From Thermoanaerobaculum sp. (lineage in GTDB: Bacteria > Acidobacteriota > Thermoanaerobaculia > Multivoradales > UBA5704): a stretch of 49,789 nucleotides of DNA. Below the pieces are notes generated by a model. That model ran no database searches and was not told the origin of the DNA. It was given only the letters and a program-made list of their open reading frames with translations. The stretch covers positions 65,559 through 115,347 of the forward strand of contig JAJKHS010000055.1 of the NCBI GenBank assembly GCA_021154885.1, in the 5' to 3' direction. A program made the position numbers and the translations under genes. Positions 6,991 through 42,526 of this stretch are shown here, piece after piece (position 1 is the first letter of the stretch; each line of letters opens with the position of its first letter).

Positions 6991-6997
6991 CGCCAGC

Positions 6998-9364: not shown

Positions 9365-9372
9365 GACAGGGG

Positions 9373-9378
9373 ATTGTA
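9373..9378 (-). promoter_or_regulatory. TACAAT -10-like box for the isoaspartyl peptidase gene
   Basis: Read on the minus strand, TACAAT is followed by 8 bases and then the ATG at 9364. No ribosome site is visible, consistent with a leaderless transcript. Confidence 0.45.
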
Positions 9379-9429
9379 GCGCGGCCGCCGCCGGGAGAGA
9401 GGGAGAGGTTTGCCTGGAGACAGGTGTGG

Positions 9430-9435
9430 TAGCGT
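9430..9435 (+). promoter_or_regulatory. TAGCGT -10-like box for the small PHA-system-like gene
   Basis: TAGCGT is followed by 7 bases and then ATG at 9443. There is no Shine-Dalgarno sequence. It is one of a set of similarly spaced TANNNT boxes in the window. Confidence 0.4.
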
Positions 9436-9442
9436 TTCGCCC

Positions 9443-9727: not shown

Positions 9728-9742
9728 CCGCGGGCGCGCTCC

Positions 9743-11444: not shown

Positions 11445-11451
11445 GCCCGGG

Positions 11452-11457
11452 AGCGTA
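11452..11457 (-). promoter_or_regulatory. TACGCT -10-like box for the LOG-family gene
   Basis: On the minus strand TACGCT is followed by 7 bases and the ATG at 11444, with no ribosome site between them. This is a leaderless-type arrangement. Confidence 0.4.
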
Positions 11458-11516
11458 GCAAAGATGAGGCCGCCCGCGGCGCCCGCCCTCATTGCCGCAG
11501 AGCGGCGTAACCGTGG

Positions 11517-11537
11517 TATATAACGCCAGGAAGGAGA
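11517..11537 (+). promoter_or_regulatory. TATATAAC -10 region and GGAAGGAGAG ribosome site of the thiolase gene
   Basis: TATATAAC at 11517-11524 is a good -10 candidate. It is followed by a strong Shine-Dalgarno GGAAGGAGAG (about 11529-11537) upstream of ATG 11547. A TTGCCG at 11492 is too far away for a confident -35. Unlike several neighbours, this gene has a conventional leader. Confidence 0.45.
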
Positions 11538-11546
11538 GATAAGCGA

Positions 11547-12995: not shown

Positions 12996-12999
12996 GATG

Positions 13000-13097
13000 A
13001 TTTTAGATTTTGGATTTTGGATTGGGGCTCGGGCCGCGATTCCCGATCCAAATCCAAGCCTTTCTTTTAATCCAAAATCTAAAATCCAAAATCCAAA
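13000..13097. repeat. AT-rich ATTTTGGATTTTGG inverted repeat
   Basis: Between the thiolase stop and the next start lies an AT-rich island. The left arm is ATTTTAGATTTTGGATTTTGGATT (13000-13023) and the right arm (13069-13097) is its approximate reverse complement, built from AATCC-AAAAT units. The right arm ends exactly at the ATG of the CoA-transferase gene. It contrasts sharply with the surrounding composition and looks like an inserted repeat. Confidence 0.8.
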
Positions 13098-25150: not shown

Positions 25151-26998
25151 ATGAAGAATCCGTTCGAATCATTCCGCCTTCCCGCCGCGATGCTGGCGGG
25201 CGCGGGGCTCCTGATGGCGCTCGTCGCCATCCCCTCCCTCGCCTCGTCCCAGACCGCGACCGCCAAAAAGCCCACGGTCGAAGACGCCCGCAAGTTCCTC
25301 GCCGACGCCTCAACGCGCCTGCTCGACCTGAGCATCGAGTCCGGCCGCGCCCAGTGGGTGCAGGAGACCTTCATCACCTACGATACCGAGACCCTCGCCG
25401 CCAAGCGCAACGAGGCCCTCCTCGGCGTCAGCGTCGACCTCGCCAAGAAGGCTGCCCGTTTCGACGGCGTCCAGCTCCCGGCCGACGTGCGGCGCCAGAT
25501 CGACCTGCTCAAGCGCGCCCTGACGCTGGCGGCGCCCAGCGATCCCGCGAAGACCGCCGAGCTGACCCGCCTCGCCGCCTCCCTCGACGGGCAATATGGC
25601 GCCGGAAAGTATTGCCCGCCAGGAGGAGGCGCGTGCAAGACCCTCCCCGACCTCGAGGAGGTGATGACCAACAGCCACGATCCCAAACAGCTCCTGGAGG
25701 CCTGGGCCGGCTGGCACTCGATCTCGCCCCCGATGCGCAAGGACTACGTCCGCCTGGTCGAGATCGCCAACGAAGGCGCCCGCGAGCTGGGCTACAAGGA
25801 CACCGGCGCCCTCTGGCGCTCGAAGTACGACATGCCGCCCGACGCCTTCGCGGCCGAGCTCGACCGGCTGTGGGGACAGGTCAAGCCGCTCTACGACTCC
25901 CTCCACTGCTACGTGCGGGCCAAGCTCAACAAGCAGTACGGCAACGACGTCGTGCCGCTCGACAAGCCCATCCCGGCCCACCTGCTGGGCAACATGTGGG
26001 CGCAGACCTGGGACAACGTCTACTGGCTCGTGGCGCCGCCCAATGCCGACCCTGGCTTCGACCTCACCCAACGGCTTCAGGAGAAGAAGGTGGATGCCAA
26101 GGGGATGGTCAAATACGGCGAGAGCTTCTTCAAATCCCTCGGCTTCGCACCGCTGCCCGCAACCTTCTGGGAGCGCTCGATGTTCACCCAGCCGCGGGAC
26201 CGCGACGTCGTCTGCCACGCCAGCGCGTGGAGCATCGACTTCCAGGACGACCTGCGGATCAAGATGTGCATCAAGATCAACGACGAGGACTTCCGCACCA
26301 TCCATCACGAGCTGGGACACAATTTCTACCAGCGGGCCTACGACAAGCAGCCCTTCCTTTACCAGGACAGCGCCAACGACGGTTTCCACGAGGCGGTGGG
26401 CGACACCATCGCGCTCTCCGTCACGCCCGACTACCTGAAGCAGATCGGCCTCATCGACCGGGTGCCCGACCCGTCGAAAGACCTGGGCCTGCTGATGAAG
26501 AAGGCGCTCGACAAGGTGGCCTTCCTCCCCTTCGGCCTGATCATCGATCAATGGCGCTGGAAAGTCTTCTCCGGCGAGATCAAGCCGGACCACTACAACC
26601 AGGGCTGGTGGGACCTGCGGGTGAAGTACGAGGGCATCATGCCGCCGGTGGCCCGCAGCGAGAAGGACTTCGATCCCGGCGCCAAGTACCACGTGCCGGG
26701 CAACACGCCCTACATGCGCTACTTCCTGGCGGACATCCTCCAGTTCCAGCTCCACCGCGGCCTCTGCCAAGCGGCCGGCTACAAGGGCCCCCTCCACCGC
26801 TGCTCGATCTACGACAACAAGGCCGCGGGCGAGCGTCTGGCGAAGATGCTGGAGATGGGGCAGAGCCGGCCCTGGCCCGAAGCCCTCAAGGAAGTCACCG
26901 GCCAGGACAAGATGGACGCCACCGCCATCCTCGACTACTTCGCCCCCCTGAAGACCTGGCTCGACGAGCAGAACAAGGGCCAGAAATGCGGCTGGTAG
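25151..26998 (+). CDS. exported M2 family (angiotensin-converting-enzyme-like) zinc dipeptidyl carboxypeptidase
   Basis: A 615-residue single-domain peptidase. A signal peptide (MLAGAGLLMALVAIPSLASS) precedes the M2 catalytic domain. The zinc site is HHELGHNFYQRAY (H386, E387, H390) with the third ligand E414 in FHEAVGDTIALS. LWRSKYDMPPDAF, PIPAHLLGNMWAQTWDNV and YNQGWWDLRVKYEGIMPP are family blocks that line the ACE substrate pocket. Two Cys pairs (YCPPGGGACKT and LCQAAG...RCSIYD) may form disulfides outside the cell. It should release dipeptides from peptide C-termini. Bacterial members occur in Xanthomonas, Acidobacteriota and others. It appears to be a single-gene transcription unit. Confidence 0.92.
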   Translation: MKNPFESFRLPAAMLAGAGLLMALVAIPSLASSQTATAKKPTVEDARKFLADASTRLLDLSIESGRAQWVQETFITYDTETLAAKRNEALLGVSVDLAKKAARFDGVQLPADVRRQIDLLKRALTLAAPSDPAKTAELTRLAASLDGQYGAGKYCPPGGGACKTLPDLEEVMTNSHDPKQLLEAWAGWHSISPPMRKDYVRLVEIANEGARELGYKDTGALWRSKYDMPPDAFAAELDRLWGQVKPLYDSLHCYVRAKLNKQYGNDVVPLDKPIPAHLLGNMWAQTWDNVYWLVAPPNADPGFDLTQRLQEKKVDAKGMVKYGESFFKSLGFAPLPATFWERSMFTQPRDRDVVCHASAWSIDFQDDLRIKMCIKINDEDFRTIHHELGHNFYQRAYDKQPFLYQDSANDGFHEAVGDTIALSVTPDYLKQIGLIDRVPDPSKDLGLLMKKALDKVAFLPFGLIIDQWRWKVFSGEIKPDHYNQGWWDLRVKYEGIMPPVARSEKDFDPGAKYHVPGNTPYMRYFLADILQFQLHRGLCQAAGYKGPLHRCSIYDNKAAGERLAKMLEMGQSRPWPEALKEVTGQDKMDATAILDYFAPLKTWLDEQNKGQKCGW

Positions 26999-29321: not shown

Positions 29322-29516
29322 ATGAAACGAACCGCATTGCAGCAGCGAGTGGTCGCAGATTCCGAAATCCATCACGTGGAGCCCTGCATCGCAGGCACCC
29401 GCATCCCTGTGCGGATGACCGTGGGGAGCCTGGCGGATGGCATGACGGTCGAACAGGTCGTGGCGGAGTATCCGCAGTTGGAGCCCCTATCTCCGGAGCC
29501 GGTCCAAGTGGCCTGA
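29322..29516 (+). CDS. DUF433 antitoxin-like protein, probably C-terminally truncated
   Basis: A 64-residue protein. RVVADSEIHHVEPCIAGTRIPVRMTVGSLADGMTVEQVVAEYPQL follows the DUF433 (VapB45-type) consensus 'I..dpei..GkP.I.GTRi.v..il..l..G.s.eei...yp.l'. The family normally continues with a helix of about 12-20 residues (DI.AAL.YAA), which is replaced here by the unrelated EPLSPEPVQVA. The usual partner DUF5615 (PIN-like toxin) is absent; instead the reading frame runs 30 bases into the convergent TIR-CHAT gene. It looks like an orphan remnant stranded next to the STAND gene. Confidence 0.7.
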   Translation: MKRTALQQRVVADSEIHHVEPCIAGTRIPVRMTVGSLADGMTVEQVVAEYPQLEPLSPEPVQVA

Positions 29517-32500
29517 GAAGACCCGAACCATCCCAGGATCCTTGATCGCCCGCCCGATCGCCAGGCCCTGCTCCAGATACCCGATGGCTTTCTCGGCCTC
29601 GCCCAAGGCCGCGTAGGCGATCCCCAGGTTCCCTAGATCTTTACCTTCCCCCCTTCGGTCATCGATCTCGCGACTGATGACCAACGCCTGCTCGAAGTAC
29701 CCGATGGCGTTTTCGACCTCGCCCAACTGCGCATTGGCGGTCCCCAGGTTGCCCAGAAGGTTGCCTTCCCCCTGCCGGTCACCCATCTTGCGAAGGATGA
29801 CCAACGCCTGTTCGTAGTACCCGAGGGCCTTCTCGACCTCGCTCAGGTTCGCGTAGGCTAGGCCCAGGTTGCCCAGAGCTTGGCCTTCTCCCAATCGGTC
29901 ACTGATCTCGCGGGCGATGCCCAATCGCTGCTCGTAGTACCCGATGGCCTTCTCGACCTCGCCCAAGTCCGCGTAGGCCAGACCCAGGTTGCCCAGAGCT
30001 CTGCCTTCCCCCCGTCGGTCGCCGATCTCGCGAACAATGACCAGTTGCTGCTCGTAGTAGCCGATGGCCTTCTCGGCCTCGCCCAAGTCCGCGTAGGCTA
30101 GGCCCAGGTTGCCCAGAGCGTTGCCTTCCCCCTGTCGGTCACCGATCTCGCGAGCAATCACCAGTCGCTGTTGGTAGTACCCAATGGCCTTCTCGACCTC
30201 GCCCAGCCGATAATAGACTGAACCTATCGTACCTAGAAGCCGGCCCATACGTTCGGCCGACATCGCTTCTCGCGCCTCTTGGCTTAGGAATGGCGCCAGG
30301 ATCTGCAGACCCTCCCGAACCCGGCCATGGTCCCGCAGCCAGTCCGACGCCGATCCCAGCAGTTCATAGGCCCGGTCGTACTCGCCAGCCTCGAAGAGGT
30401 GGTGCCCGGCTTCAATATCTACGTTGATATAAGACGATTTTTCGGCCTCCGCCTCCAAGTGCTCCCCCAGCCGACGGTGAGCCGCCTTCCGGAGCTGCTC
30501 GGCTTCCCCGAAGCGCTGGCGGACGAATTGGATTGTTGCCGGATGGAGCGTGTAGTGGCGCACCGGGGCGACCTTGCCACCAGGTTTATTAACCAGCAAA
30601 TCCACCTGTTCCAGCAGCGACGTCCTCCGTAGCCGCTCGGCAGTCTCGAAGGCCGCTTCCTCTCCTTCTCCTTCCTCTCCCAGCACTGCCATGAGATCCG
30701 ACTCCCACGGTCGCCGCAGAAGGGTCATGCGGTAGAGCATGCGACGGGCGTGGTCGTCCAGGACGCGGTCCCACATCTCGCCCAGCAGCAGGTTGGCCCA
30801 CAATTTGTCCTGGACCTTGGGCAGTACCGGCGCGATCAGATCCGCCCATTCCCGCTCGGGGTCCTCGCCCTCTTGCCAGGGACCATGGCGATCCTCCCAG
30901 ACGGCCAGAGCGTGGGCGAGCAGATCGTTCGCGTACTCCACAGCCCGCGGGTGGCCGGCGAGGAGCCCGACGAGCCGCGCCCGATTCTGCGGGCCGAGGC
31001 GCCGCAGCGCTGGAAACCAGCTCATCAGGCGGAAGAGGGCGTCGGGCGGCAGGGGTGAGACCGGCAACAGAGCCCCGGCGAAATCAGGATTCCGATAGCG
31101 GCAGCTCGCTACGAGGTAGAGCCCGTCGCCGTCCTGCGCCAACGAGGTGAGGATCTTCCAGAGCTGCGCCAGATCGGGCGAAGCCCAATCCCCGATCGCT
31201 GTGTCGTCGTTCTCAGCGTTCGTATCCTTGGGACCGACGAGCAGCGACTCCAGGTTGTCCAGATAAAGGACGAGGCGCGGCAGGTTCTGCAGCAGGATTT
31301 GGAGGAATGCCGAGAACCGTTCGACGGGATTACCTCCTACTTCGCGATCTACGTAGTTCACGACCGGCTCCCACTCCAGACCGAACTCTTTACGAGAGGC
31401 GTCGAGGAGTTGGGCGACGAGCGCTGCGACGCGATCTGGACGGTCCTCGGTCTCCTGGCACCAGAGGGTGATGGCCAGGCCTTCGCCGCGGAGGAGCATG
31501 GGCAGGACCTGGAAGGACAGCGTGCTCTTGCCGAGTCCTCCCAGGCCCTGGAAGACGTAGATTCGCTCTCCTTCGCGGATGCGCCGCCGCACCCGGTGGA
31601 GCTCAGTCCGCCGGCCGATGAAGCCGGTGGTGAGGATCCGGCGGTCGCCCTCGACTTCGAAGGTGCGGCGCAGCTCCGCCTCGGGCGGGCGTACTCCTTG
31701 GGCTGCGGGGAGGCTCAGGGAGAAATCCGGTCCCCGGTGATAGAGGACGAGCTGAGCCCAGGCGAAGGGGTGACTCTGTTGATCCACGGCGAGTCCCGCT
31801 CGAACCTCCCCGGGCTCGGCCACGGCTCGTGGACGATGGCGAGCGTCCGGAGCCGCGAAGGGCCTGGCCAGCGCCTCCCGCGCCTGGCGGATGGCATAGC
31901 GCGTCGTCTCCCCCTCGGCCAAGGCGCGATAGAACGCCACCTCGGCGCGGGTGGACAGCTCGTCGACGATGGGGCCGTAGTAACCAACCACCTGCGGCAC
32001 TCCCTCGCGGTGCAGGCGGGCGGCTGAGCTTTCGGCGCCCGCTTTTCCAGCCTCGGGATCGGCGGTCCGCGGCGCGCCAGGGTCGTTGCCGTGGCAGCTT
32101 GCGAGATAGAAGAGCGGCGGCAGCGCGCCGTCGATCCGCTGGCGCAGCTTGGACAGGAGGTCGTGGATGGACACCACGGCCTCCCGCCCCTCCTCGTCCT
32201 CGAAGGCGAGCGCGCCGGGAGCGCCGTGGCCGGAGAAGTGGATGGCCGTCGGGCGCTCGGCGCGCACCGTGTCCGCCAGGTCCTCCAGGGTCCCCAGCTC
32301 CGTGGGCACGAAGTGGCACTTCTCGGAGAGGGCCTTGGTGATGCGATAGCTTTCCCCTTCGTAGTCGAGACCGCTTCCCGCCGGCGCCGAGACGTTCACG
32401 ACCAGTTTCAGATAGCCGTCCGGCTCGCGCAGCAGGGCCTCGGGGCCGACCTCCCCGGGCGTCGAGCGGGCCAGGTCTACGCGGGCGTCGCGCAACAGGA

Positions 32501-33302
32501 AGGAGCTCTCGTGGTACAGCAGCTCCCAGGGGAGTGAGAGGAGGAGGTCGTCGTCGCTGCGGAGGGTGATCAGAGGCCGCGGCCGGCCCGGCACCATGGC
32601 CTTGCGCAGTCGCTCGAGACCGTCGGCGTCGAAGAGGAGGTCGAAGAGCAGGCTTCCCAGGGTCGTGGCGCGGCTCACCAGATCGGCCCGCGCGGCGTCG
32701 GTGGTGACCGGCTCGCGGGTGAGGCGGCTGTAGAAATGGAGGGCGATGCCGAAGCGGTTGTCCACCTTCCAGGGCGGCGTGACCGTCCGCGTGGTCCCCA
32801 GCGGATCGGTGATGCGGAGGTCCTCTCCCTCCCTTCCCAGGACGAACGCCAGATCCTGGCCGAGGACGAGCCGGCGGACGTCCCCTTCCTTCAGCTCCCC
32901 GGGCCGGCCGGCGATGCGCGCGATCTCCCGCGCCACCCGCCCCGCGTCGCGGTCGGTGGCGTCGATGCGATGGAGGGCGGCGAGCAGGGCCGGCACCTCG
33001 GTAGGCTCCAGCATCACCGGCAGGAGCCGCCCTCGGGGACCGTGATGGGCGAGGAACGAGGGCCACTCCAGGCTCACCCAGTCGCGCGCCGAGTGGGGCG
33101 ACAGGACGAGCACCAGGAACCGGCTGGCCGCGATGGCATCGCTCAGGACGAGGGGAAAATTCGCCGCCGGCTCGATGGCGCGGACATCGAGGAACGGCTT
33201 GAGCCCGAGCCCTTCGAGCTCGCGAGCCAGGGTCTCCACCCACGGCTGGTCCGGGCTGCCGTGGGAGAGGAAGACGTCGTAGACCTGGGACGGCTCGGGC
33301 AT
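29487..33302 (-). CDS. TIR-CHAT-NB-ARC-TPR multidomain protein (NLR-like immune or cell-death receptor candidate)
   Basis: A 1271-residue protein with four modules. (1) Residues of about 7-135 are a TIR domain: VYDVFLSHGSPDQPWVETLA, a VLVLSPHSARDWVSLEW stretch with the W75..E79 pattern of NAD-cleaving TIRs, and LLPVML. (2) Residues of about 200-525 are a CHAT caspase-like protease with the His/Cys dyad H359 (IHFSGHGAPG) and C403 (YLASCHGND). (3) Residues of about 555-930 are a STAND ATPase: FIGRRTELHRV, P-loop GLGGLGKST (586-594), Walker B LVLYLDNLE (D682), then a winged-helix-like region. (4) Residues 1021-1260 are six 40-residue TPRs. ATG 33300-33302 has an AAGGTG ribosome site and a TAGAAT box 10 bases upstream. 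The inferred mechanism is TPR sensing, ATP-driven assembly and effector release. Confidence 0.9.
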   Translation of the reverse strand: MPEPSQVYDVFLSHGSPDQPWVETLARELEGLGLKPFLDVRAIEPAANFPLVLSDAIAASRFLVLVLSPHSARDWVSLEWPSFLAHHGPRGRLLPVMLEPTEVPALLAALHRIDATDRDAGRVAREIARIAGRPGELKEGDVRRLVLGQDLAFVLGREGEDLRITDPLGTTRTVTPPWKVDNRFGIALHFYSRLTREPVTTDAARADLVSRATTLGSLLFDLLFDADGLERLRKAMVPGRPRPLITLRSDDDLLLSLPWELLYHESSFLLRDARVDLARSTPGEVGPEALLREPDGYLKLVVNVSAPAGSGLDYEGESYRITKALSEKCHFVPTELGTLEDLADTVRAERPTAIHFSGHGAPGALAFEDEEGREAVVSIHDLLSKLRQRIDGALPPLFYLASCHGNDPGAPRTADPEAGKAGAESSAARLHREGVPQVVGYYGPIVDELSTRAEVAFYRALAEGETTRYAIRQAREALARPFAAPDARHRPRAVAEPGEVRAGLAVDQQSHPFAWAQLVLYHRGPDFSLSLPAAQGVRPPEAELRRTFEVEGDRRILTTGFIGRRTELHRVRRRIREGERIYVFQGLGGLGKSTLSFQVLPMLLRGEGLAITLWCQETEDRPDRVAALVAQLLDASRKEFGLEWEPVVNYVDREVGGNPVERFSAFLQILLQNLPRLVLYLDNLESLLVGPKDTNAENDDTAIGDWASPDLAQLWKILTSLAQDGDGLYLVASCRYRNPDFAGALLPVSPLPPDALFRLMSWFPALRRLGPQNRARLVGLLAGHPRAVEYANDLLAHALAVWEDRHGPWQEGEDPEREWADLIAPVLPKVQDKLWANLLLGEMWDRVLDDHARRMLYRMTLLRRPWESDLMAVLGEEGEGEEAAFETAERLRRTSLLEQVDLLVNKPGGKVAPVRHYTLHPATIQFVRQRFGEAEQLRKAAHRRLGEHLEAEAEKSSYINVDIEAGHHLFEAGEYDRAYELLGSASDWLRDHGRVREGLQILAPFLSQEAREAMSAERMGRLLGTIGSVYYRLGEVEKAIGYYQQRLVIAREIGDRQGEGNALGNLGLAYADLGEAEKAIGYYEQQLVIVREIGDRRGEGRALGNLGLAYADLGEVEKAIGYYEQRLGIAREISDRLGEGQALGNLGLAYANLSEVEKALGYYEQALVILRKMGDRQGEGNLLGNLGTANAQLGEVENAIGYFEQALVISREIDDRRGEGKDLGNLGIAYAALGEAEKAIGYLEQGLAIGRAIKDPGMVRVFSGHLDRLRR
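29523..30242 (-). repeat. six tandem 120-bp TPR-coding repeats
   Basis: Six consecutive 40-codon units of the form '(N/Q)ALGNLGLAYADLGEVEKAIGY' followed by 'YEQ.L.I.REIGDR.GEG'. Units 2-4 are highly alike at the DNA level (repeated CCCAGGTTGCCCAGAGC and CGATGGCCTTCTCGACCTCGCCCA on the plus strand), pointing to recent expansion or gene conversion. Units 5 and 6 are more diverged. Confidence 0.9.
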
Positions 33303-33312
33303 CGCACCTTCT

Positions 33313-33318
33313 ATTCTA
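33313..33318 (-). promoter_or_regulatory. TAGAAT -10-like box of the TIR-CHAT gene
   Basis: On the minus strand TAGAAT is followed by AGAAGGTGCG and the ATG at 33302. A transcription start 6-7 bases downstream would leave almost no leader. Confidence 0.4.
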
Positions 33319-33403
33319 CGGGCCCGCCCCCTGCGGCGGCGGATCGGCGGCGCAGCCAGGAAATCGGCTGCGCCGGCGGCGCAGCCGAAATTTGCCCGGC
33401 CCA

Positions 33404-33640
33404 ACCGTTGATCTGACTGGCCCAGCCAAAATTTGAGTCAAAAATCCGGTGATCTGACTATTTCGGTGAAAATTTGCTCAAATCTCCGGAAATTTGCTCA
33501 GCCCACCCGATGATCTGATCAAATCTCTGGTGATTTGCTCAGATCTCTGGTGATTTGCTCAGATTGGCCCAGATTTGCTCAAAAAATCCAATGCGCTGGA
33601 TTGCGCAGCGAAATTTTACCTTAAAAATCCAATTTCTTGG
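33404..33640. repeat. AT-rich region with imperfect 20-bp tandem repeats
   Basis: The 470-base gap upstream of the TIR-CHAT gene has no gene. Its first half is AT-rich compared with everything around it and holds repeated AATTTGCTCA/GATTTGCTCAG words. Two near-identical 20-base units lie at 33521-33540 and 33541-33560 (AAATCTCTGGTGATTTGCTC), a degenerate third at 33561-33580 and a related unit at 33478-33500. GATCTGA words alternate with them. Confidence 0.75.
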
Positions 33641-33772: not shown

Positions 33773-35998
33773 TCACCTCACCGGCAGGCACCCGCGCAGA
33801 TTCTCGTAGCCGCGCGCCTTCAGCTCCTCCAGCCGTGGCGCCGCGCCGGTCTGGGTGCGCAGGAGGTCGGCGGCGTGCTGGCGCAGGAGGAGGAGGTCGG
33901 GGTTTTCCGGCCACTCCACGGGCTCGAGGTGGAGGCGGCGCAGGGCGTGGACGGGCGGCATGGCGGTCTTCGGCCGGTCTTCGCGGGGAAGCTGCCACAT
34001 GCCGAGACGGAAGTAGATCCGCTCCGCGCACTGCGCAAGCTGGCCGCGCACCTCCGCCGGCTCGCCATGCAGGAAGTTGGGCGGCGACGACTGCCCGGTG
34101 GCATGGCAGGTGGCGCAGTAGCGGAAGAAGGTGCGCAGGGCGGGCTCCTGGAAGCGCGCCGCCAGCCGCTCGGCCTCCGCCGCCTCCGGACCCGCTCCGC
34201 CTCCCAGGACGTCGAGCATCGCCTGGGGCATGCCGGCCTCGCGGGGTGGGGTCGCGGGCGCGGCCCCGAGCTGCGCGAGGAGGGCTGGGACGAGCGCCGA
34301 CCGGCGGAAGGGCCGGTCCGCAAAGGCGTCGCTCTCCCCCGCCGCCGTGCTCCGCACCAGGGTCTCGATCGCCCGGTCCACGGCGGCGAAGTCGGAGAGG
34401 AAGGTCAGCTCGGCGCGGCCGTTCTGGGCGGCGCCCCCGGAGTCGCGCCAGGTGAGGTCGAGCCCCTCGACCGCGTCGCCGTTGGGCCGCCGGGCCCTCA
34501 AGGCCGAACCCTTCTGAAGCAGCGCCAGATGGATGCCGCCGGCTGCCGGCTCTCCGGCCTGGACCGCGAGGTCGGCGAGCTCGGTCGCGCCGCCGATCGT
34601 CACCTTTTCGATCTCCCCGCCCGTCACCCGGCCGCCGGCGAGGTAGATCCGACCCTGGAGGGTAAAGTCGCCCTGGCAATCAAGCTTCAAACGGTCGGTT
34701 TCCCCCGAAGCGCCGCGCCGCGCCACGAGGTGGCAGTCGGCGGCCAGCCGGCGGCGCGGGGCGGCCGGGGCGCTGCCGGCGGCGAAGAGCCGCGCGTCGA
34801 GGTCCCGGACGTCGCTTTCGGCGAGGAAGGCGGCGAGGCCTGAGACCAGACGCTCGAATCCGCCGTCGAGCGACCAGGTCTCCAGCGGCGGCCGGGGGTT
34901 CAACGGCTCGAAGACGGCGGGGATGGACGAGTGGAGGACGACGCCGCCGAGGAGCGTCGTCTGCTCCGGCGTGAGGCTCCCCGGCACGCTGGCCTGGCGG
35001 GGGCCGGACACGTCGCCGGCGAAGGGGTCGCGGTTGGGGAGGTCGGGGTCGGGGACGGCGAGGCCGCGGGGGAAGCGCTCCTTGATGCGCGGCGCGAAGG
35101 GGGTCAGCCGGTTTTCGTCGAAGCGGCTGCCGAGACGGTATTGGAGGGCGGCTGTGAACAGGGCCGCCCGGCACCGGGGCGCCTGCTCGCGCGCGGCCGC
35201 GCACCCCTCGCGCCAGAGCCGCTGATCGAGGGCGAAGCGGTTGGCGCGGTCCGCCGCCGCCTGCACGGCGTAGGGCGCGTCGGGCCCGAGGTCGATGGGA
35301 AAGCCGTAGAAATCGCGCTTCTCGTCGCGCAGCAGGCCGGCGATCTTCGGATTGGCGTTGGTCTCGTCCCACACCTGGCGGGCGAAGATGGGCGCCGCGT
35401 TCTGGTGGCAGGCGGTGCAGAGGGCGCGCGAGGCGTAGAGCACGCGCGGCTGGCCGCCCGGCCGGTAGTCGCGCACCACCTGGAACTCGAAGCGGCCGGC
35501 CGTCTCGTTGTAGCTGATCACTTCGAGGATGGCCGCCGTCTCCTGGTAGCCCATGTAAAGGCGGTCCTTGAGCAACGGCACGCCCTGCCGGCTGGCATCC
35601 CCCGTCACCGCCAGGACGGCGCGGGGGGCGCGAAAGAAGTGCGGGGCGGCCGCGTTGCGCTGGAGCGACCGGCCGAGCGGGATGAGAACGCGCTCGAAGG
35701 GCTGGGGATCGGCTTTCCCTCCCAGCTCCTGCTCGACCCTGCTCACCAGCGCGGCGAAGGGGAAGGGGACGTCGTAGACCCGCTCGCCGCCATGTTGCAC
35801 GGTGACCAGGAAGTCGAACAGCGACCGGCCGGCCGGCGGCAGGTCCTCGCCAGGGTCTTCTGGATCGACGGCCCAGGGCGGCGGCGCGGGACCCGCCGCC
35901 GTGGCCAGCGCCGCGAGGGCGAGGAGCACGGCGAGGAGCAGGAGATGGAACGGGCCGGCGATGCGCCGCCGGCCCGAGTTGCTGCGGTGAGGAGACAT
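33773..35998 (-). CDS. exported protein with two CxxCH haem motifs (fifth gene of cytochrome operon)
   Basis: A 741-residue protein with an N-terminal signal or anchor helix (HLLLLAVLLALAALATAAG). Two c-type haem sites are far apart: CTACH (194-198) and CATCH (628-632). The long region between them contains IYLAGGRVTGGEIEKVTI and GRAELTFLSDFAAVDRAIE, a beta-rich insert with no family I can name. The C-terminal part around the second haem (FFRYCATCHATGQSSPPNFL) resembles a cytochrome c domain with a candidate distal Met (MWQLP or TAMPP). It is probably periplasmic or outer-surface. It starts 5 bases after the lipoprotein gene and closes the operon. No enzyme function can be assigned; peroxidase-like or electron-transfer roles are possible. 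Confidence 0.75.
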   Translation of the reverse strand: MSPHRSNSGRRRIAGPFHLLLLAVLLALAALATAAGPAPPPWAVDPEDPGEDLPPAGRSLFDFLVTVQHGGERVYDVPFPFAALVSRVEQELGGKADPQPFERVLIPLGRSLQRNAAAPHFFRAPRAVLAVTGDASRQGVPLLKDRLYMGYQETAAILEVISYNETAGRFEFQVVRDYRPGGQPRVLYASRALCTACHQNAAPIFARQVWDETNANPKIAGLLRDEKRDFYGFPIDLGPDAPYAVQAAADRANRFALDQRLWREGCAAAREQAPRCRAALFTAALQYRLGSRFDENRLTPFAPRIKERFPRGLAVPDPDLPNRDPFAGDVSGPRQASVPGSLTPEQTTLLGGVVLHSSIPAVFEPLNPRPPLETWSLDGGFERLVSGLAAFLAESDVRDLDARLFAAGSAPAAPRRRLAADCHLVARRGASGETDRLKLDCQGDFTLQGRIYLAGGRVTGGEIEKVTIGGATELADLAVQAGEPAAGGIHLALLQKGSALRARRPNGDAVEGLDLTWRDSGGAAQNGRAELTFLSDFAAVDRAIETLVRSTAAGESDAFADRPFRRSALVPALLAQLGAAPATPPREAGMPQAMLDVLGGGAGPEAAEAERLAARFQEPALRTFFRYCATCHATGQSSPPNFLHGEPAEVRGQLAQCAERIYFRLGMWQLPREDRPKTAMPPVHALRRLHLEPVEWPENPDLLLLRQHAADLLRTQTGAAPRLEELKARGYENLRGCLPVR

Positions 35999-36003
35999 CG
36001 CCG

Positions 36004-36858
36004 TCAGTGGACGTCGGCCACCTGCTGGGATTCCGGGTTGTCCTTGCCGTTCCAGCAGTCCTCCGCGGCAGCCCCGCCGGCCTTGGCCGCGGCCTCGTTG
36101 TAGAGCGTGAAGTTGAGGACGAAGATCTTGCCCATGTAGGCCCGCCCGAGGTAGAAGCCGGGGCGGACCCGGCGGATCTCGTCACGCACCTGGAGGCCGT
36201 TGCGGCCGGCGACCGAGTCGGCCTTGGGCAGATAGCCGTCGACGTCGTCGCCGAAGGCGTAGTCGATGATCACCGACTCGCGCCGGCTGTCGAGATTGCT
36301 CTGGCCGCAGAAGAGCTTGGCGGGGAAGAGGAGCGCGACCGTCTTGCCGTTGAACTGGCCGGTGCGAAAGGAGTTGACGTCGACGTCGAACAGCTTGGCG
36401 ACCAGGGCGCGGTCGTCGATCATGTTGCGCAGCTCGCGCTTGTCGCGGTAGAAAACCTTGCCTTTCCACAGCAGCCGGACGACGAGCCGGAGCTGGTCGA
36501 GCACAAGGTCGTTGGCGAAGCCGCGGGCGCCGCCCATGACCTTGGAGATGCGCTCCAGGCCGCCGTCGTCGGCGAAGAAGAGGTCGCCGGTGTAGGCGCC
36601 GTCGGGGATGGGCCCGGCGGTCAGCCGGGCATAGATCTGGTCGACCTTCTCCTGCGGCAGGGCGCGCAGGTTCTCCGGCGTGATCTTCGCCCGGTCGGCC
36701 GCCGAGAGCGGATGATCGAGCTCGACGCGGGCGAAGTCCGGCTTGGTCGCGTAGGGCGCCTTGTAGTCGGAGAAGGGGATGGGCGGCGGCGCCGTCTTGC
36801 ACCCCACCCCGAGGACGAGGACGGCAAGGACGGAGAAAGTGAAGGATCGAATTCGCAT
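36004..36858 (-). CDS. lipoprotein of the cytochrome operon
   Basis: A 284-residue protein with a lipobox (FSVLAVLVLGVGC, lipidated Cys about 20), so it should be anchored to a membrane. The mature part starts KTAPPPIPFSDYKAPYATKP and contains DHPLSAADRAKITPENLRAL and VFYRDKRELRNMIDDRALV. It has only two more cysteines and no haem motif. I do not recognise a family. AGAGGAGA gives a good ribosome site, and the gene lies 20 and 5 bases from its operon neighbours. A role as a tether or assembly factor for the exported cytochromes is inference from position only. Confidence 0.7.
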   Translation of the reverse strand: MRIRSFTFSVLAVLVLGVGCKTAPPPIPFSDYKAPYATKPDFARVELDHPLSAADRAKITPENLRALPQEKVDQIYARLTAGPIPDGAYTGDLFFADDGGLERISKVMGGARGFANDLVLDQLRLVVRLLWKGKVFYRDKRELRNMIDDRALVAKLFDVDVNSFRTGQFNGKTVALLFPAKLFCGQSNLDSRRESVIIDYAFGDDVDGYLPKADSVAGRNGLQVRDEIRRVRPGFYLGRAYMGKIFVLNFTLYNEAAAKAGGAAAEDCWNGKDNPESQQVADVH

Positions 36859-36879
36859 GGCTCGTCTCCTCTCGCGGTC

Positions 36880-39309
36880 CTAGAAAGTGGCCAGGTAGGC
36901 GATCAGCGCCTTCTTGTCCGCCGGCGGCAGGTTGCCGCCGAAGGGGTGGCCGCCGTTCTCAAAGTCGGCGGTGCAGTTGCCGTAGAGCCGCAGGAGCCTG
37001 CTGGCCTCCGGGCGGCCGACCTTGTAGATGTCGCCGTCGTCCAGGTGGTGCGGCAGTGCGTCGGCCAAGTGTCCGAGAAGGGCCGCGTCCGCGGCGCCGT
37101 GCTCCTTGTCGTGCGCCACGAGCCGGGCTTTCAGCGCGCCGGGGTCGGCCTTGGCCGCGATCAGGTCGTCCACCAGCCGCTTGTAGTCCAGGCTCACCAG
37201 CAGGCCCGCCGGCTCGCCCTCGGGGATCTGGAGCTTGAGGGTCTTGATCTTGTGGTTGCCGATCGAGCGCAGCCCGACCTCGATGCGGATGTCGTCGTCG
37301 AGCAGCGTGACCTTGGGCACTCGCTGATCCGGGTTCAACAGCTCCTCCATCGAGGCCTTGTAGAGCGCGTAGCGCCCTTCGACGCTGGGGTCGTAGGGCC
37401 AGCACTTCGGGGCCTGCTCCGGCGGCAGCCGGCGGTAGCCGTCGGCCGTCTTCTCGACGTAGGAGGAGGCATAGAAGTCGGGGGCCGGGGCGGCCGGCTG
37501 GCCGCAGATCTCGGGGCCGAGGGCGTTGTTGTGCATGAAGGGCGCGGTGGCCCAGACGTTGATCAGCGAGATGTTGCGGTAGTAGCCGCGGCCGCCGCCC
37601 GTGGTGTCCGCGACGTTGGAGTCGCCCGCCCGCTCGTGATAGCTCTCCGAGCCGTACTGGCCGAAGACGTGCCCCTTCATGTGGTTCGAGTGCAGGGCGC
37701 GGCAGCGGTAGGTGCCGACCTCGGAGGCCAGGGTCGGCTTGTCATTGCCCAGCCAGTCGATGCGATTCCCCTTCTCGTCCTTGGCCAGGAAGTCGCGGTT
37801 GTCGAACGGCTCGGACTGGCTGGAGTGGCAGCGGGCGCAATTCTGCGCGAAGACCATCCGGCCGCGGTCCACGGCGCCCTTGCCGAGCTCCTTGTCGAGC
37901 TGCTCGACGAGGTCCCGCGGGTCCTCGAGGCCGCGCGCCTGCCAGAGATCGGTCGGCTTGCGCGAGAGGAAGAACTGCAGCACGTCGTCCAGGCGGTCCT
38001 CGATGGCGCGCAGGTTGGGGCAGTCGCGCCGGCACTGGCCGATCTCGAACTCGGTCTGCCCGAAGTTGCGCTGTTGCGGATCGATCTGGCGCGCGTCGGT
38101 GAGGTGGTTCAGCCAGCACGGCTCGGCGCAGGAGCCGATGTTGAAGTAGACGCGCTGAATGGCCTCGCGGACGCCGATCGAGTCCTCGCCGCCCTTCAGG
38201 ATGTGGTGCACGGTCTCGACCTGGAGCTTGCGCTCCTTGCACTTGCCCGGCTTGCCCGGCTCGCACCAGCAGACGTCGGGGTCGGACTTGTCCGGACAGC
38301 TCGCCACCGGCCGCCATTTCAAAACCTTTTCATTCGGGAAGGTCGGCCGCTGCGCGATGTTGATGATGGCGTTCATGGTGCCGGGGTTGTGCACCGAGTC
38401 GTTGGGCATCGCCGAGGTGTCGACGGTGCCCGGCCGGTCGTGCGCGAAGAGCTGCCACTCGGGGCTGTCCCTGGGCATGCCGGAGGCGAAGACCTCGGAG
38501 ATCCGCTGGTACTGGTTGCCCACCGCCCCCTTGAGGTTCTCCCAGCGCGGATTGGCCGGGTCCTTGGGCGGGTGGAGCGGGTCGAAGGCGATGTGGCAAA
38601 CGCCGCAGGCCATGCCGATCAGGTACGGCGGCTCGATCGACGCGTCGGCCAGGTGACTGACCTTGAAGTCCGGATGCTTGGGATCGTCGGAGAGCCGCTT
38701 CGTGAAGCCCTCCCAGGTGCCCAGCCGGCCGCCGTTGACCTTCTGCCACTTCGCGGCATCGAAGCGCGGGTTGGGGAACTTGCGCAGGCCGAGCGCCCCG
38801 GTCGAGGTGCCGAACTGCAGGTCGCAGGGGCTCTGCTTGTCCCCCCGGCCGCCAGGGTCCTTGAAATCGCAGGCCGGATCGCGGTAGCCCGGCTTGCCGA
38901 CGTGGCTCAGGAGCTGGTCGTCGCCCCGGCAGTATTCGAAGCCGTAGGTCTCGTCCAGGCTCTTCGCCGGGCAGCCGGCGGAGCCGGGGACGCAGCAGTC
39001 GGGGTCGTGGATCAGGCCCCAGGCCTTGAACCGCTCGCCCTGCTGATCGGCGCGCAGCACGCGGTACCAGTCGATGAGCACGCCCAGCCGCTGCTGGAAG
39101 GTGTAGGTGGTGAAGCGCGCCGAGCCGGCGGTCGCCTTGTACCAGATCTCCGCGCCGGCGATCTCGGTCGGCGAGAGCCCGGCTTCGGCGGTGGCGAAGC
39201 CGTCGTCACGGTATGCGCCGGAGTCCCCGGGGCCCGCGGGCGCCGAGGAGACGGTGCTCGTGAGAGCGAGCACCAGGATCAAGCCCAGGAAAGTCGAGGC
39301 CCGTTTCAT
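36880..39309 (-). CDS. large exported dihaem cytochrome c protein (third gene of cytochrome operon)
   Basis: An 809-residue protein with a cleavable signal peptide (STFLGLILVLALTSTVSSAPA). Haem motifs are CGVCH (235-239) and CARCH (490-494). The N-terminal region is rich in extra cysteines (HDPDCCVPGSAGCPAKS, EYCRGDD, DPACDFK, SPCDLQFG) likely to be disulfide-bonded, pointing to an extracytoplasmic location. HMKGHVFGQYGSESYHERAG and PFMHNNALGPEICG after the second haem could supply distal ligands. The final GGHPFGGNLPPADKKALIAYLATF is the tail found at the end of many dihaem peroxidase-like cytochromes ('L....K..Li.YL.tl'). An AGGAGG ribosome site precedes the ATG. The specific substrate is unknown. 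Confidence 0.8.
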   Translation of the reverse strand: MKRASTFLGLILVLALTSTVSSAPAGPGDSGAYRDDGFATAEAGLSPTEIAGAEIWYKATAGSARFTTYTFQQRLGVLIDWYRVLRADQQGERFKAWGLIHDPDCCVPGSAGCPAKSLDETYGFEYCRGDDQLLSHVGKPGYRDPACDFKDPGGRGDKQSPCDLQFGTSTGALGLRKFPNPRFDAAKWQKVNGGRLGTWEGFTKRLSDDPKHPDFKVSHLADASIEPPYLIGMACGVCHIAFDPLHPPKDPANPRWENLKGAVGNQYQRISEVFASGMPRDSPEWQLFAHDRPGTVDTSAMPNDSVHNPGTMNAIINIAQRPTFPNEKVLKWRPVASCPDKSDPDVCWCEPGKPGKCKERKLQVETVHHILKGGEDSIGVREAIQRVYFNIGSCAEPCWLNHLTDARQIDPQQRNFGQTEFEIGQCRRDCPNLRAIEDRLDDVLQFFLSRKPTDLWQARGLEDPRDLVEQLDKELGKGAVDRGRMVFAQNCARCHSSQSEPFDNRDFLAKDEKGNRIDWLGNDKPTLASEVGTYRCRALHSNHMKGHVFGQYGSESYHERAGDSNVADTTGGGRGYYRNISLINVWATAPFMHNNALGPEICGQPAAPAPDFYASSYVEKTADGYRRLPPEQAPKCWPYDPSVEGRYALYKASMEELLNPDQRVPKVTLLDDDIRIEVGLRSIGNHKIKTLKLQIPEGEPAGLLVSLDYKRLVDDLIAAKADPGALKARLVAHDKEHGAADAALLGHLADALPHHLDDGDIYKVGRPEASRLLRLYGNCTADFENGGHPFGGNLPPADKKALIAYLATF

Positions 39310-39340
39310 GAACGCCTCCTATGGAAAGGTTTCTTTTGTC

Positions 39341-40828
39341 TCATAGCGTCTTCAGGTACTCGATCAGGTCGTCCTTGGCCGGCGCGGCGAGCTGGGTGCC
39401 GAAGAGATGGCCGCCATTGCCGTTGCCGCGCTGCCGGGTGTCGTAGAGGAAGAACTTGCGCCCCTTGACCTGGGCGAGGTTCGAGATGAAGCCGAGGTTC
39501 TGCGCGTCGATCACGTCGTAGCCGCGATAGAAGGTCTGCGGCCGGCGCGCGGGCGGCTCCAGCAGGTCGCGCACCGTGGGCACCGAGCCGTTGTGCAGGT
39601 AGGGCCCGCGCAGCCAGGTGCCATCGAGCTGCACGGCGATGTAGCCCTCGGTCTTGACCATCGGCGTGCGAGTGATTCCCAGCGACGCCACCTTGGCGTT
39701 GGCGCCGTCCGCCGCCGCCTTCGTCCAGGCGTCGAGGCGCGCGCGGTCGGTGTCGACCTCGGCAATGGGGATCACGGTGCCCATCCGGTTGTCGCGCTGG
39801 GAAGCGTGGCAGGCCGCGCATTCGGTTTCGAACACGGCCTTGCCGCGCGCCGCTTTCTGGGCGTCGACGGGCAGCGGGTAGGCGGGCGGCCGGAACTCCC
39901 GCAGCCAGTCCAGGAGCTGCGGAATGCGCCGGTTGAAGAACGGCGTGTTCTTCGCCCCGAGGCCGAGCGCCGAGTCGATGAGCACCGAGCGGAACGAGGT
40001 CGTGGCGCCGTCCAGGTTCATCAGCATGGTATGGGCGGGAATGGGGTTGGGCGTCTTGTCGCTCCAGGTGCGCCCCGCCTGCTCGCGGGCCGCGAGGTGC
40101 CAGATGGCCGGGAAGTCGGTGTTGTCGACCGTGTCATCCGCGGGCATCTGGAGGAGGTTGAACTTGGTCAAGTTCATCGGCGCGTCGCGGCCGGGCCCCC
40201 ATTGCGGCAGGCGCGCCGTCCAGGCGAAGCCCTTGCCCTGGTCGAGCAGGGCCTTCTTCACCTGCGGCACGGCGAAGCGGTAGATCAGGCGGTCGACGAA
40301 CGAGAGCTTGGTCACCAGGTCGATCTGGGCCAGCAGGTCGTCGGCGGTGAAGCGCGGATCGCCGGCGCAGCGGGTGAAGAAGAGGATCAGCCCCTGGATG
40401 TCGGCGGTGTGGCCGGGGCCGGCGGCGACGACCTTCGGCACCTCGTCCTCCTTGGTGCGGTAGGAGGTGGAATGGCAGATGGCACAGTTTTCGCCCACGC
40501 GGACGAAGCCGATGGTCTTCTTCGAAAAGCCGGCCGGCATCTCCCTGCCCTGCTCCCAGGAGATCCCCAGCGAGGCGTAACCGCCCGGTCCCGGGAGGTA
40601 CTCCGGGAACATCCGCGGCAGCACCAGCCAGATCCAGTAGGGGATGCCGGCGTCCGCCTCGCCGCCGATCGAGCCGTAGAGGAAGTTGTCGCTCTGGTTT
40701 TTCGTGATCCATTCCGGCTGCGGCACGTCGCGGAAGATCTTGTACCAGACCGTGATGCCCACGATGACGCCGAGCACGGCGAGGACGGCGACGGCGATCA
40801 GGATCTTTCTCTTTTTGCGGGCGTCCAT
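39341..40828 (-). CDS. membrane-anchored dihaem cytochrome, RoxA/dihaem-peroxidase-like, paralogue 2
   Basis: A 495-residue protein with an N-terminal anchor (KILIAVAVLAVLGVIVGITV). Haem motifs are CAICH (115-119) and CAACH (337-341). Shared with the upstream paralogue are GIPYWIWLVLPRMFPEYLP with GYASLG, WGPGRDAPMNLTKFNLLQM, GTWLRGPYLHNGSVPTVRDL, FYRGYDVIDAQNLGF and the terminal KDDLIEYLKTL. The WGPGR..D block, the YLHNGSVP loop and the dihaem spacing recall RoxA-type rubber oxygenases and NCBI 'di-heme cytochrome c peroxidase' proteins, which are exported. Assignment to that superfamily is an inference. Activity (dioxygenase, peroxidase or electron transfer) cannot be read from sequence. 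Confidence 0.78.
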   Translation of the reverse strand: MDARKKRKILIAVAVLAVLGVIVGITVWYKIFRDVPQPEWITKNQSDNFLYGSIGGEADAGIPYWIWLVLPRMFPEYLPGPGGYASLGISWEQGREMPAGFSKKTIGFVRVGENCAICHSTSYRTKEDEVPKVVAAGPGHTADIQGLILFFTRCAGDPRFTADDLLAQIDLVTKLSFVDRLIYRFAVPQVKKALLDQGKGFAWTARLPQWGPGRDAPMNLTKFNLLQMPADDTVDNTDFPAIWHLAAREQAGRTWSDKTPNPIPAHTMLMNLDGATTSFRSVLIDSALGLGAKNTPFFNRRIPQLLDWLREFRPPAYPLPVDAQKAARGKAVFETECAACHASQRDNRMGTVIPIAEVDTDRARLDAWTKAAADGANAKVASLGITRTPMVKTEGYIAVQLDGTWLRGPYLHNGSVPTVRDLLEPPARRPQTFYRGYDVIDAQNLGFISNLAQVKGRKFFLYDTRQRGNGNGGHLFGTQLAAPAKDDLIEYLKTL

Positions 40829-40849
40829 GACAAGTCCTCGCCGGATCGA

Positions 40850-42439
40850 TCAGAAGGTTTTGAGGTACTCGAGCAGGGCCTGTTTCTGCTCGGCGGGAAG
40901 ATAGGTGCCGAAGGCTTCACCCTCGTGGCCCCAGTTGCCGTTGCCCGGCTGGCCGGTGTCGAGTTTGAAGAAGCGGCGCCCGCCCTGCTCAGGGACGTTG
41001 AAGACGAAGCCGACGTTCTGCGGATCGTAGACGTCGTTGCCGCGGTAGACAATTTTCGTCCGCGCGGCCGCCGGCTCGAGCAGCTCGCGCAGGTTGGGGA
41101 CCGAGCCGTTGTGCAGGTAGGGGGCGCGCAGCCAGAGGCCGTCGAGCGGCGTGTTGGCGTAGCCGTAGGTCTTGTGGTAGCGGGTGAAGCGCCGGGGATA
41201 GGGTTTGTCGAAGCCCCAATCCGGCTCGAAGCCCGCGTAGTTGGTGCCCAGGTTGACCGCCAGCTCCCAGGTGAAGGAGTCGAGGCGGCGGCGGTCGGTG
41301 CCAATGGCGGCGATCGGCACCACCTCGCCCACGTGCTCGCCCGGCTGCCGCTGCTGGTGGACGAAGGGCGGGGCCTTGGTGCCGTGGCAACCGGCGCAGT
41401 AGTGCTGATAGATCGGCGCGCCCCGGGACGCGAGGGCCGCGTCGACGGGAAAGAGATCGGAGAATGGCACCGGCCTGGCGGTCTCCAGCCACCTGGCGGT
41501 GCGCTGGAGACTGTCGGCGTCGATCGACGGCGGGTAGGCGCCGGTGCCGAAGGCGGCGTTCAGGTTGCGCTCGGTGACGTGGTCGTTGTTGCCGTCCCAG
41601 TGCAACGCCATGTGCGCGTCCTGCCGCGGTCCCTGGTTCCAGATCGACGGGAAGTCGGCGAAACCGGTGAGCTCCTCCGGATCGGCGTGCGTCATGTTGA
41701 AGTTGAAGAACGCCTTGTTGGGGCCGAAGGTATCGTCCCGGCCCGGACCCCATTTCGCGAACTCGATGAAGCTCAGGCGCTGCGGCAGGCTGAGCGTCTG
41801 CTCGCGCATGCGATAGACGGCGATGTAGCGGAAGATCAGCCGGTTGATCAGGTCGGGCTTGTCGACCAGGCGGTGGGAGTCGTTCTCCATCACCCGGATC
41901 TGGTCGAGCAGCCGCTGCGGCGTGAACTTCGTGTCGCGGGCGACGTTGGTGAGGAACTGGCCCCAGGCGCCGATGTCGAAGGTGTTGGCGGGCATGCCGA
42001 GGACCACCCGCGCTGGCGCACCGGGCGCCGTGCGCACCGTGCCGGTGTGGCAGACGGCGCAGTTCAGATACACGCTGTCGATGCCCCGCACGTTGCGCCG
42101 CGACATGCCCGCCGGCAGGTCGTAGCGCGGGTCCTTCCCCGCCTCGTAGACCATGCCGAACGAGGCGTAGCCGTGGCCGGGCCTCTTGTCCGGCAGGTAC
42201 TCGGGGAAGACCTCGGGGAGGGCCACCCAGAGCCAGTAGGGGATCCCCGTCAGCCGGTCGCCGCCGGTGGAGCCATACTTGAAATGGGCGGCGTCGTCGG
42301 CATAGTCGACGGGCTCGTCGCGGGTCAGCCGCCAGGCCAGGTAGAGGCCGGCGACGACGAGCAGGGCAACGCAGGCCACGAGGGCGATCCGCAATGCCCT
42401 GGCCCACTTGCGACGGGACGGTCTCGCAGCAGCGTTCAT
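40850..42439 (-). CDS. membrane-anchored dihaem cytochrome, RoxA/dihaem-peroxidase-like, paralogue 1 (first gene of operon)
   Basis: A 529-residue protein starting at ATG 42437-42439 with a GAGGAGAG ribosome site; a possible upstream ATG at 42499 overlaps the -10 box and is rejected. The N-terminal anchor is ALRIALVACVALLVVAGLYL. Haem motifs are CAVCH (127-131) and CAGCH (348-352). It carries the same blocks as paralogue 2: GIPYWLWVALPEVFPEYLP, KWGPGRDDTFGPNKAFFNF, LWLRAPYLHNGSVPNLRELL, VYRGNDVYDPQNVGF and KQALLEYLKTF. The 221-residue haem spacing matches the 222 of its neighbour. The pair were probably produced by tandem duplication and may act as a heteromeric pair or on related substrates. 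Confidence 0.8.
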   Translation of the reverse strand: MNAAARPSRRKWARALRIALVACVALLVVAGLYLAWRLTRDEPVDYADDAAHFKYGSTGGDRLTGIPYWLWVALPEVFPEYLPDKRPGHGYASFGMVYEAGKDPRYDLPAGMSRRNVRGIDSVYLNCAVCHTGTVRTAPGAPARVVLGMPANTFDIGAWGQFLTNVARDTKFTPQRLLDQIRVMENDSHRLVDKPDLINRLIFRYIAVYRMREQTLSLPQRLSFIEFAKWGPGRDDTFGPNKAFFNFNMTHADPEELTGFADFPSIWNQGPRQDAHMALHWDGNNDHVTERNLNAAFGTGAYPPSIDADSLQRTARWLETARPVPFSDLFPVDAALASRGAPIYQHYCAGCHGTKAPPFVHQQRQPGEHVGEVVPIAAIGTDRRRLDSFTWELAVNLGTNYAGFEPDWGFDKPYPRRFTRYHKTYGYANTPLDGLWLRAPYLHNGSVPNLRELLEPAAARTKIVYRGNDVYDPQNVGFVFNVPEQGGRRFFKLDTGQPGNGNWGHEGEAFGTYLPAEQKQALLEYLKTF

Positions 42440-42497: not shown

Positions 42498-42526
42498 ATT
42501 TTAAGGCTTCCGTATTACACTTGCAA
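42498..42526 (-). promoter_or_regulatory. sigma70-type promoter of the cytochrome operon
   Basis: On the minus strand TTGCAA (42521-42526), a 17-base spacer and TAAAAT (42498-42503) form the best promoter match in the window. The predicted start near 42491 gives a leader of about 50 bases to the ATG at 42439. Confidence 0.7.

Follow-up and report, generated by a model that had tools for sequence, protein, structure and literature searches.

RoxA-type di-haem proteins include few characterised members, namely the rubber oxygenases and a fatty-acid-converting pair from Pseudomonas aeruginosa, and many of their relatives are of no known function. In RoxA, the O2-binding haem is lined by F301-W302-D-G and F317, and F301 and F317 stabilise the bound O2, according to the available part of PMC6797691. 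Trp302 and Phe317 were called strictly conserved among active rubber oxygenases in the accessible text of PMC10837239. The haem sites of RoxA include H195 and H641, and the ligands of PA2077 and PA2078 of P. aeruginosa include H611 and H603, respectively, as given in the accessible portion of PMC4496055. In the same text, PA2077 is a 10S-dioxygenase with W251 and F269, PA2078 is a 7,10-diol synthase with S243 and F260, and the Ser of PA2078 was proposed as a possible cause of altered electron flow from one haem to the other. In this study, a stretch of 49,789 nucleotides from Thermoanaerobaculum sp. (contig JAJKHS010000055.1; hereafter the window) was analysed, with emphasis on five neighbouring genes, A to E, on its minus strand at 33773-42439. 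We tentatively read them, with a probability of about 0.4, as coding for an oxygenase system that is attached to the membrane, lies outside the cytoplasm and acts on a lipid-like substrate.

A and B both belong to the RoxA/CCP type of di-haem protein. Gene A (40850..42439, minus strand) encodes a RoxA-like protein of 529 residues that looks membrane-anchored, with CxxCH motifs at 127 and 348, and gene B (39341..40828, minus strand) encodes its 495-residue paralogue, with CxxCH at 115 and 337. Export signals, anchors and lipoboxes were judged by eye throughout, not predicted by a program. For the Pfam and NCBIfam scores, the longer, 549-residue open reading frame (ORF) of A, extending to 42499, was used as the query. 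Against Pfam RoxA-like_Cyt-c (PF21419), A and B obtained 52.5 and 51.1 bits, both above the gathering score of 26.7. Against NCBIfam NF040606 CytoC_perox (di-heme-cytochrome C peroxidase), A passed the cut-off of 150 with 168 bits, and B lay half a bit under it with 149.5 bits. Furthermore, a profile of eight A/B sequences matched RoxA (PDB 4b2n, Steroidobacter cummioxidans) with E=7e-24, and the alignment paired the conserved GNxNxGH His of A/B with the C-terminal GNDNGGH of RoxA. The likeness of A and B to RoxA and di-haem peroxidases, proposed in a first-pass annotation of this DNA, was thus supported by Pfam, NCBIfam and the 4b2n profile match. In the tree, B formed a single clade (support 100/99), within which the B proteins from operons containing gene D (D-operons) made up one clade (99/98).

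NF040606 is a functionally undefined subfamily, and a paralogue in the C116 sequence of the same genome was far nearer to the model (502.9 bits at 9956-11722, the one tested). This paralogue belongs to a second locus (L034, C116:126000-145000; 3890-13863, plus strand), where three RoxA-like di-haem proteins of larger size come after a tryptophan-halogenase-like FAD protein. The C116 trio formed a clade apart from A/B.

The scores of A for the NCBIfam RoxA, RoxB and RoxC models were 42.9, 62.4 and 74.9 bits, and those of B were 48.5, 61.1 and 58.1 bits, against equivalog/exception cut-offs of 1000, 900 and 900, respectively. Membership of RoxA, RoxB or RoxC was therefore not indicated, and polymer cleavage in particular is not supported. 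RoxA-like cleavage of rubber or another isoprenoid polymer appears very unlikely for a second reason as well: Phe301, which is needed for O2 stabilisation, is His in A. Moreover, two partially purified RoxC proteins showed no rubber activity, as cited from unpublished work in the accessible text of PMC10837239. What speaks for such cleavage is that A possesses both residues corresponding to Trp302 and Phe317, and that a polyprenyl synthetase gene (L032 15819-16937, minus strand, genome G003) precedes A on the same strand at a distance of about 1 kb; this gene was not among the neighbours tested at other operons.

The active-site residues were compared in a 24-row alignment, with the three C116 paralogues in the tree and outside the A/B counts. 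In A, H280-W281-D-G aligned with F301-W302-D-G of RoxA, and F297 corresponded to F317. Every one of the 11 A sequences had HWDG. Phe occupied the F317 position in all seven D-operon A sequences, and the other four A sequences had Leu (three) or Ile (one). The hydrophobic distal pocket with Phe301 that is a trait of RoxA was not found, the residue being His in all 11 A sequences and Asn in the window B. In addition, A contained the MauG/Rox motif PYLHNGSVP and GNGNWGH505, the presumed distal His of the C-terminal haem. A bis-His-like pattern at the C-terminal haem, with an invariant His in CxxCH and another at GxGH or GGH, was common to A, B and C. Compared with RoxA, A shares the di-haem core by profile, the Trp of xWDG, Phe317, PYxHNGSVP and the GNxNxGH His, and differs in the replacement of Phe301. 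Furthermore, A and B are shorter than RoxA, A looks membrane-anchored, and the operon is a multi-gene one with C, D and E.

The invariant His280 of A could be a haem ligand or an acid-base catalyst. The latter would suit periplasmic peroxide removal, in which A, as a bacterial cytochrome c peroxidase of large size with a distal His, would receive electrons from the carriers C, B and E and clear hydrogen peroxide or lipid hydroperoxides. Such a His offers acid-base chemistry that RoxA is missing, the NCBIfam subfamily is named after di-heme-cytochrome C peroxidase, and HWDG of A resembles the FWDG of classical CCPs. However, no match to PF03150 (CCP_MauG) was found in the five proteins up to E 0.1, nor in the genome, and D-operon A retains the Phe of RoxA F317. 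Three di-haem paralogues and a lipoprotein also seem too many for this task, and some relatives adjoin lipid enzymes. We consider peroxide removal rather unlikely.

In the window B, Leu was found at the Trp302 position, Asn at Phe301 and Leu at Phe317, so that by alignment the pair of Trp302 and Phe317 was complete in A (W281 and F297) and lacking in the window B. Among the seven D-operon B sequences, the Trp302 position was Leu in two (the own genome and G003), Ala in four and Trp in one (L031); the last kept Trp302 together with a change of Asp303 to Ala. The F317 position was Leu in these sequences, except for Phe in L053, and His was found at the Phe301 position in four of the seven. HWDG was intact in three of three B proteins from GMC-linked operons, two of which are close relatives. 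Thus, among the three paralogues A, B and C, only A had an intact inter-haem motif in all of its copies. The first-pass annotation had raised the case of both haems being hexacoordinate in all homologues; this was not shown, as no candidate for a distal His at the N-terminal haem was invariant among the seven D-operon B sequences, and His280 of A may or may not be a ligand.

As far as the accessible text of PMC4496055 describes the P. aeruginosa pair, the FadCcp oleate-diol synthases PA2077 and PA2078 are likewise RoxA-like paralogues in tandem, of which only one has the inter-haem Trp, as A has Trp and B has Leu. Both are exported and have the PYxHNGSVP motif and a His distal ligand, as in A/B. 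The differences are the haem spacing (245/235 in PA2077/PA2078 versus 221/222 in A/B), Gln at the Phe301 position in both, and Phe317, which is kept in both PA2077 and PA2078 and is Leu in the window B. Counterparts of C, D and E are not mentioned in that text.

Gene C (36880..39309, minus strand) encodes an exported di-haem protein of 809 residues, and profile comparison identifies it as a remote paralogue of A/B. In hhalign, C matched A/B with a probability of 99.2% and E 1.8e-19, and the aligned region took in the MauG-like motif and the second haem; its own scores were 17.3 bits for PF21419 (gathering 26.7) and 33.7 bits for NF040606 (cut-off 150), both under the thresholds. Lys372 stood at the Trp302 position, in the equivalent stretch LKxGxDSxG, where 14 of 15 sequences had Lys and one had Trp (LWDG); the latter anchors the assignment of Lys to the Trp302 position. 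The C-like sequences of G002, G016 and G040 were left out of the alignment. The description of C in the first-pass annotation as a cysteine-rich di-haem protein was accurate, as it contained two CxxCH motifs and 18 non-haem Cys. Sixteen of these Cys were invariant among seven orthologues and missing from the eight aligned D-less C-like sequences. As a disulphide would predict, 14 of 15 sequences had either both or neither of C536 and C779; only one G001 sequence differed (Thr/Cys). A Tyr distal ligand in C was rejected as a firm claim; of 15 sequences, 14 had Tyr at position 388 and one, L054, had Phe.

The relatives without D differed in their gene surroundings. In the order of the window, a GMC oxidoreductase domain was found 1.8-2.2 kb from the C-like match in seven of eight clusters, the eighth lying on a 7.2-kb contig without GMC. 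Matches to A were present in 64 plasmid records and matches to C in 21, and three were inspected. In both rhizobial plasmids inspected, GMC adjoined the C match. These plasmids, pRL11 and pSF45436e, carried OYE, A, a hydrophobic protein of 143 residues, B, C, GMC and a patatin-like gene, which scored 43.6 bits in pRL11 and 21.4 bits in pSF45436e, the latter under the cut-off of 27.7. The pRL11-type cluster resembles the window in having A, B and C homologues in one gene run. It differs in the absence of D and E, in the extra GMC, OYE and patatin-like genes, in its B, which keeps HWDG, and in its C, which is without the 16 extra Cys. In genome G015, the run was OYE, two C, GMC, A and B. No description of the cassette or of the rhizobial cluster was found among the titles and abstracts listed by full-text searches of open-licence PMC papers.

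The GMC association is what favours a dehydrogenase-type electron chain, in which C would serve a dehydrogenase, flavin-dependent or other, as its cytochrome partner and D/E would replace the GMC oxidoreductase of the D-less C-like genes. No GMC gene was found inside the seven D-operons, which fits such a replacement. We regard the chain as unlikely, since D, with neither an invariant His nor a flavin-fold match, is no obvious dehydrogenase and the conserved pocket of A would be left unexplained. Moreover, G595 has a GMC gene at about 4.4 kb from its operon, on the opposite strand.

Lipid-related genes, to which the OYE and GMC genes described above are also assigned, were found around several relatives. 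A patatin gene was present at L040. In Qingshengfaniella (L041), which had A without B or C in the stretch examined, a full-length match to a fatty-acid alpha-dioxygenase (4kvj, E=3.7e-109) was located upstream of A on the other strand, past two small-to-medium genes, and an alpha/beta hydrolase gene lay 3' of A. In addition, a Tle1-like phospholipase adjoined B in the D-operon L051 and was also found near the L042 operon. The D-operon neighbours tested by Pfam were those of L051 and some of those in L032, L052 and L054, and none for L031 and L053. As the lipid-related neighbours stand mostly beside D-less relatives, we infer the lipid role of the window operon from this wider context. Beside A, a membrane-protein-like hydrophobic ORF of 137-143 residues was also noticed at L040 (11518-11949, minus strand), L042 (10389-10820, plus strand) and L041 (8458-8871, plus strand); it had no Pfam match in the two tested (L040 and L041).

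Gene D (36004..36858, minus strand) encodes a protein of 284 residues with a lipobox Cys20 as read by eye, and serves as the marker of the cassette. The eight D sequences had no Pfam match, and the window D had no NCBIfam match. A lipobox-like Cys was recognised in the window, G003, L051, L052, L054 and L055, and not in L031 or in L053, the D start of which was chosen by the analyst. The view of D as a lipoprotein of no known family therefore held for the own genome, whereas the L031 orthologue has a membrane-anchor-like N-terminus in place of the lipobox. D was ruled out as a haem protein because it had no invariant His. Seven D sequences shared an invariant Trp131 and five invariant Tyr.

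Such residues would be candidate targets for a MauG/MbnH-like maturase, in which A would oxidatively modify a residue of D or C, with B and E as auxiliaries. A belongs to the same superfamily, and D stands with A in seven of the eight D loci found. However, genome G038 has D without a detected A/B, the C-terminal haem has His as its presumed ligand and not the Tyr of MauG, and the sole match to the MbnH family was weak (19.5 bits, L031 B). A maturase seems quite unlikely.

Gene E (33773..35998, minus strand) encodes an exported protein of 741 residues with CxxCH at 194 and 628. It had no PDB match with a profile and no Pfam or NCBIfam match over the cut-off. Its N-terminal CTACHQ...WDETNANP domain was kept in six genomes, and the only invariant His across the six sequences was that of the N-terminal CxxCH. 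The C-terminal haem domain was seen only in the window and G003; in the four alphaproteobacterial operons having E, the protein had a single CxxCH and no such domain, which therefore looks like an add-on. The length and the two CxxCH given for E in the first-pass annotation were correct, and the separate large insert it described was not seen in the alignment. E was also rejected as a RoxA-like enzyme, as hhalign paired only 13 residues around one CxxCH.

The distribution of the cassette was narrow and discontinuous. A, B, C and D occurred together in seven genomes, namely the own genome, one relative (G003) and five of an alphaproteobacterial class, and E accompanied them in six of the seven. 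A contig scan for relatives led to L031, an alphaproteobacterial metagenome-assembled genome. By single sequence, D was found in one of 297 phylum genomes (the own; G003 is outside this sample). By profile, it was found in one of 147 relatives of the L031 genome (L031 itself), in five of 385 genomes of the L031 class (itself and four others) and in three of 72 genomes of the window's order (the own, G003 and G038). E was found in one of the 297 phylum genomes (the own), by sequence and by profile. C matches were present in eight of 59 genomes, the own included, and the only full-length orthologue beyond the own was that of G003 (64%). No relatives of D, C or A/B were found in scans of viral contigs with those three, and plasmids gave no D or E match by tblastn.

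Two block orders were observed: ABCDE in the window and G003, and CDEAB (C-D-(E)-A-B) in all five class genomes with D, where the genes overlap or nearly touch. All five genes were neighbours in G003, L031, L051, L052 and L054, and four of the five in L053. In G524, E was not found between D and A (the search for E did not extend to the remainder of that genome). Gene order was thus conserved in blocks, with five genes in six genomes and ABCD in seven, and chance clustering was rejected. That two distant lineages carry the cassette in two block orders, and that most near relatives do not have it, points to horizontal transfer, by which it has probably spread. At the stand-alone D locus of G038 (L055 9230-10300, minus strand), the homologue is about 46% identical; its neighbours are a kinase-WD40 gene and a sigma-factor-like gene that narrowly misses the Pfam cut-off.

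In the window, the intergenic gaps were 21 (A-B), 31 (B-C), 21 (C-D) and 5 bases (D-E), and the genes encode eight CxxCH motifs, two each in A, B, C and E and none in D. A sigma-70-like promoter match, TTGCAA-17-TAAAAT, was located upstream of A (42498..42526, minus strand), as a consensus match only; three sites of this type occurred in the 9,451 bases scanned, compared with a shuffle mean of 0.5. Its -10 box overlaps ATG 42499 of the longer A ORF, and GAGGAGAG, which resembles a ribosome site, lies 5' of ATG 42439; the start of A is therefore most likely ATG 42439. The first-pass annotation had reported the five-gene run with gaps of 5-31 bases, eight CxxCH motifs, this promoter, the start of A at 42439 and the matched haem spacing of the two paralogues. 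The run and the motif count were borne out, the promoter is present as such a match, the start is preferred over the longer ORF, and the spacing agreed to within one residue.

Taken as an oxygenase system for a lipid-like substrate, the rare operon ABCD, with or without E, would be built on three RoxA/CCP-type di-haem proteins. A may bind O2 (or peroxide) at its N-terminal haem, using Phe297 and the unusual distal His280, receive electrons from the C-terminal haem via Trp281, and oxygenate a hydrophobic, unsaturated substrate, which is most likely fatty-acyl. B may be a redox-uncoupled haem enzyme, for example one rearranging the hydroperoxide formed by A in the way that PA2078 acts on the product of PA2077. 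C, which is related to the C-like proteins beside GMC oxidoreductases and is probably rich in disulphides, might be an electron relay or catalyse a further step. D may hold or present the lipid at the membrane, and E could be an accessory haem partner that is dispensable from the operon, as in G524. The first-pass annotation had suggested an undescribed oxidative system for a polymer or lipid; the gene surroundings of some relatives agree with a lipid-like substrate, and polymer cleavage was not supported.

Several points weigh against this oxygenase system. The neighbours that point to lipids are beside the D-less relatives (L040, L041 and L042) and the D-operon L051, not in the window. The loss of Trp in B is not universal, as L031 B keeps this Trp, and the Phe of F317 is retained in L053 B. 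His280 might act as a haem ligand and thereby keep O2 from binding. The parallel with PA2077/PA2078 draws on published residues, not on sequence clustering. Moreover, G038 has a stand-alone D where the A/B profile finds nothing. The AlphaFold2 models of D and E from two-row alignments (window and L031) had a mean predicted local distance difference test score (pLDDT) of 33.8 and 36.1, respectively, too low for a meaningful comparison of folds. There is also a slight chance that none of the five readings considered here is right.

A bolder form of the oxygenase system, possible and on balance doubtful, is an undescribed oxylipin-type pathway of bacteria, located outside the cytoplasm, in which three RoxA-derived di-haem proteins divide the work. 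In it, A would be a distal-His dioxygenase, B a redox-uncoupled, hydroperoxide-converting enzyme and C a disulphide-armoured relay, joined by D and E, which have no library match, as one cassette across distant lineages. Rhizobia and members of the window's order would have sister pathways that do without D and pair A/B/C with OYE and GMC, and in rhizobia also with phospholipases. Plants similarly pair lipases, dioxygenases and OPR reductases.

Other genes of the window were also noticed. Downstream of the operon, a protein of 1305 residues with TIR, CHAT and TPR (29487-33404, minus strand; AAA_16 under the cut-off) showed weak PADLOC resemblance to SAVED_TIR and SAVED_CHAT and looks defence- or signalling-like. 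A cytochrome P450 gene (44342-45724, minus strand) lies upstream on the same strand, with other ORFs between; its nearest NCBIfam models are albaflavenone and pentalenene oxygenases, far under the cut-off. In addition, a full-length homologue of angiotensin-converting enzyme (Peptidase_M2, 763 bits) was found at 25151-26998 on the plus strand.

What is new here is the recurrence of the A-B-C-D cassette, and D and E as conserved proteins without a library match. The analysis singles out His280, Trp281 and Phe297 of A and the Leu of B in the place of Trp. If the proposed system is true, the cassette would be the second case in which oxygenation is split from the rearrangement of its product.

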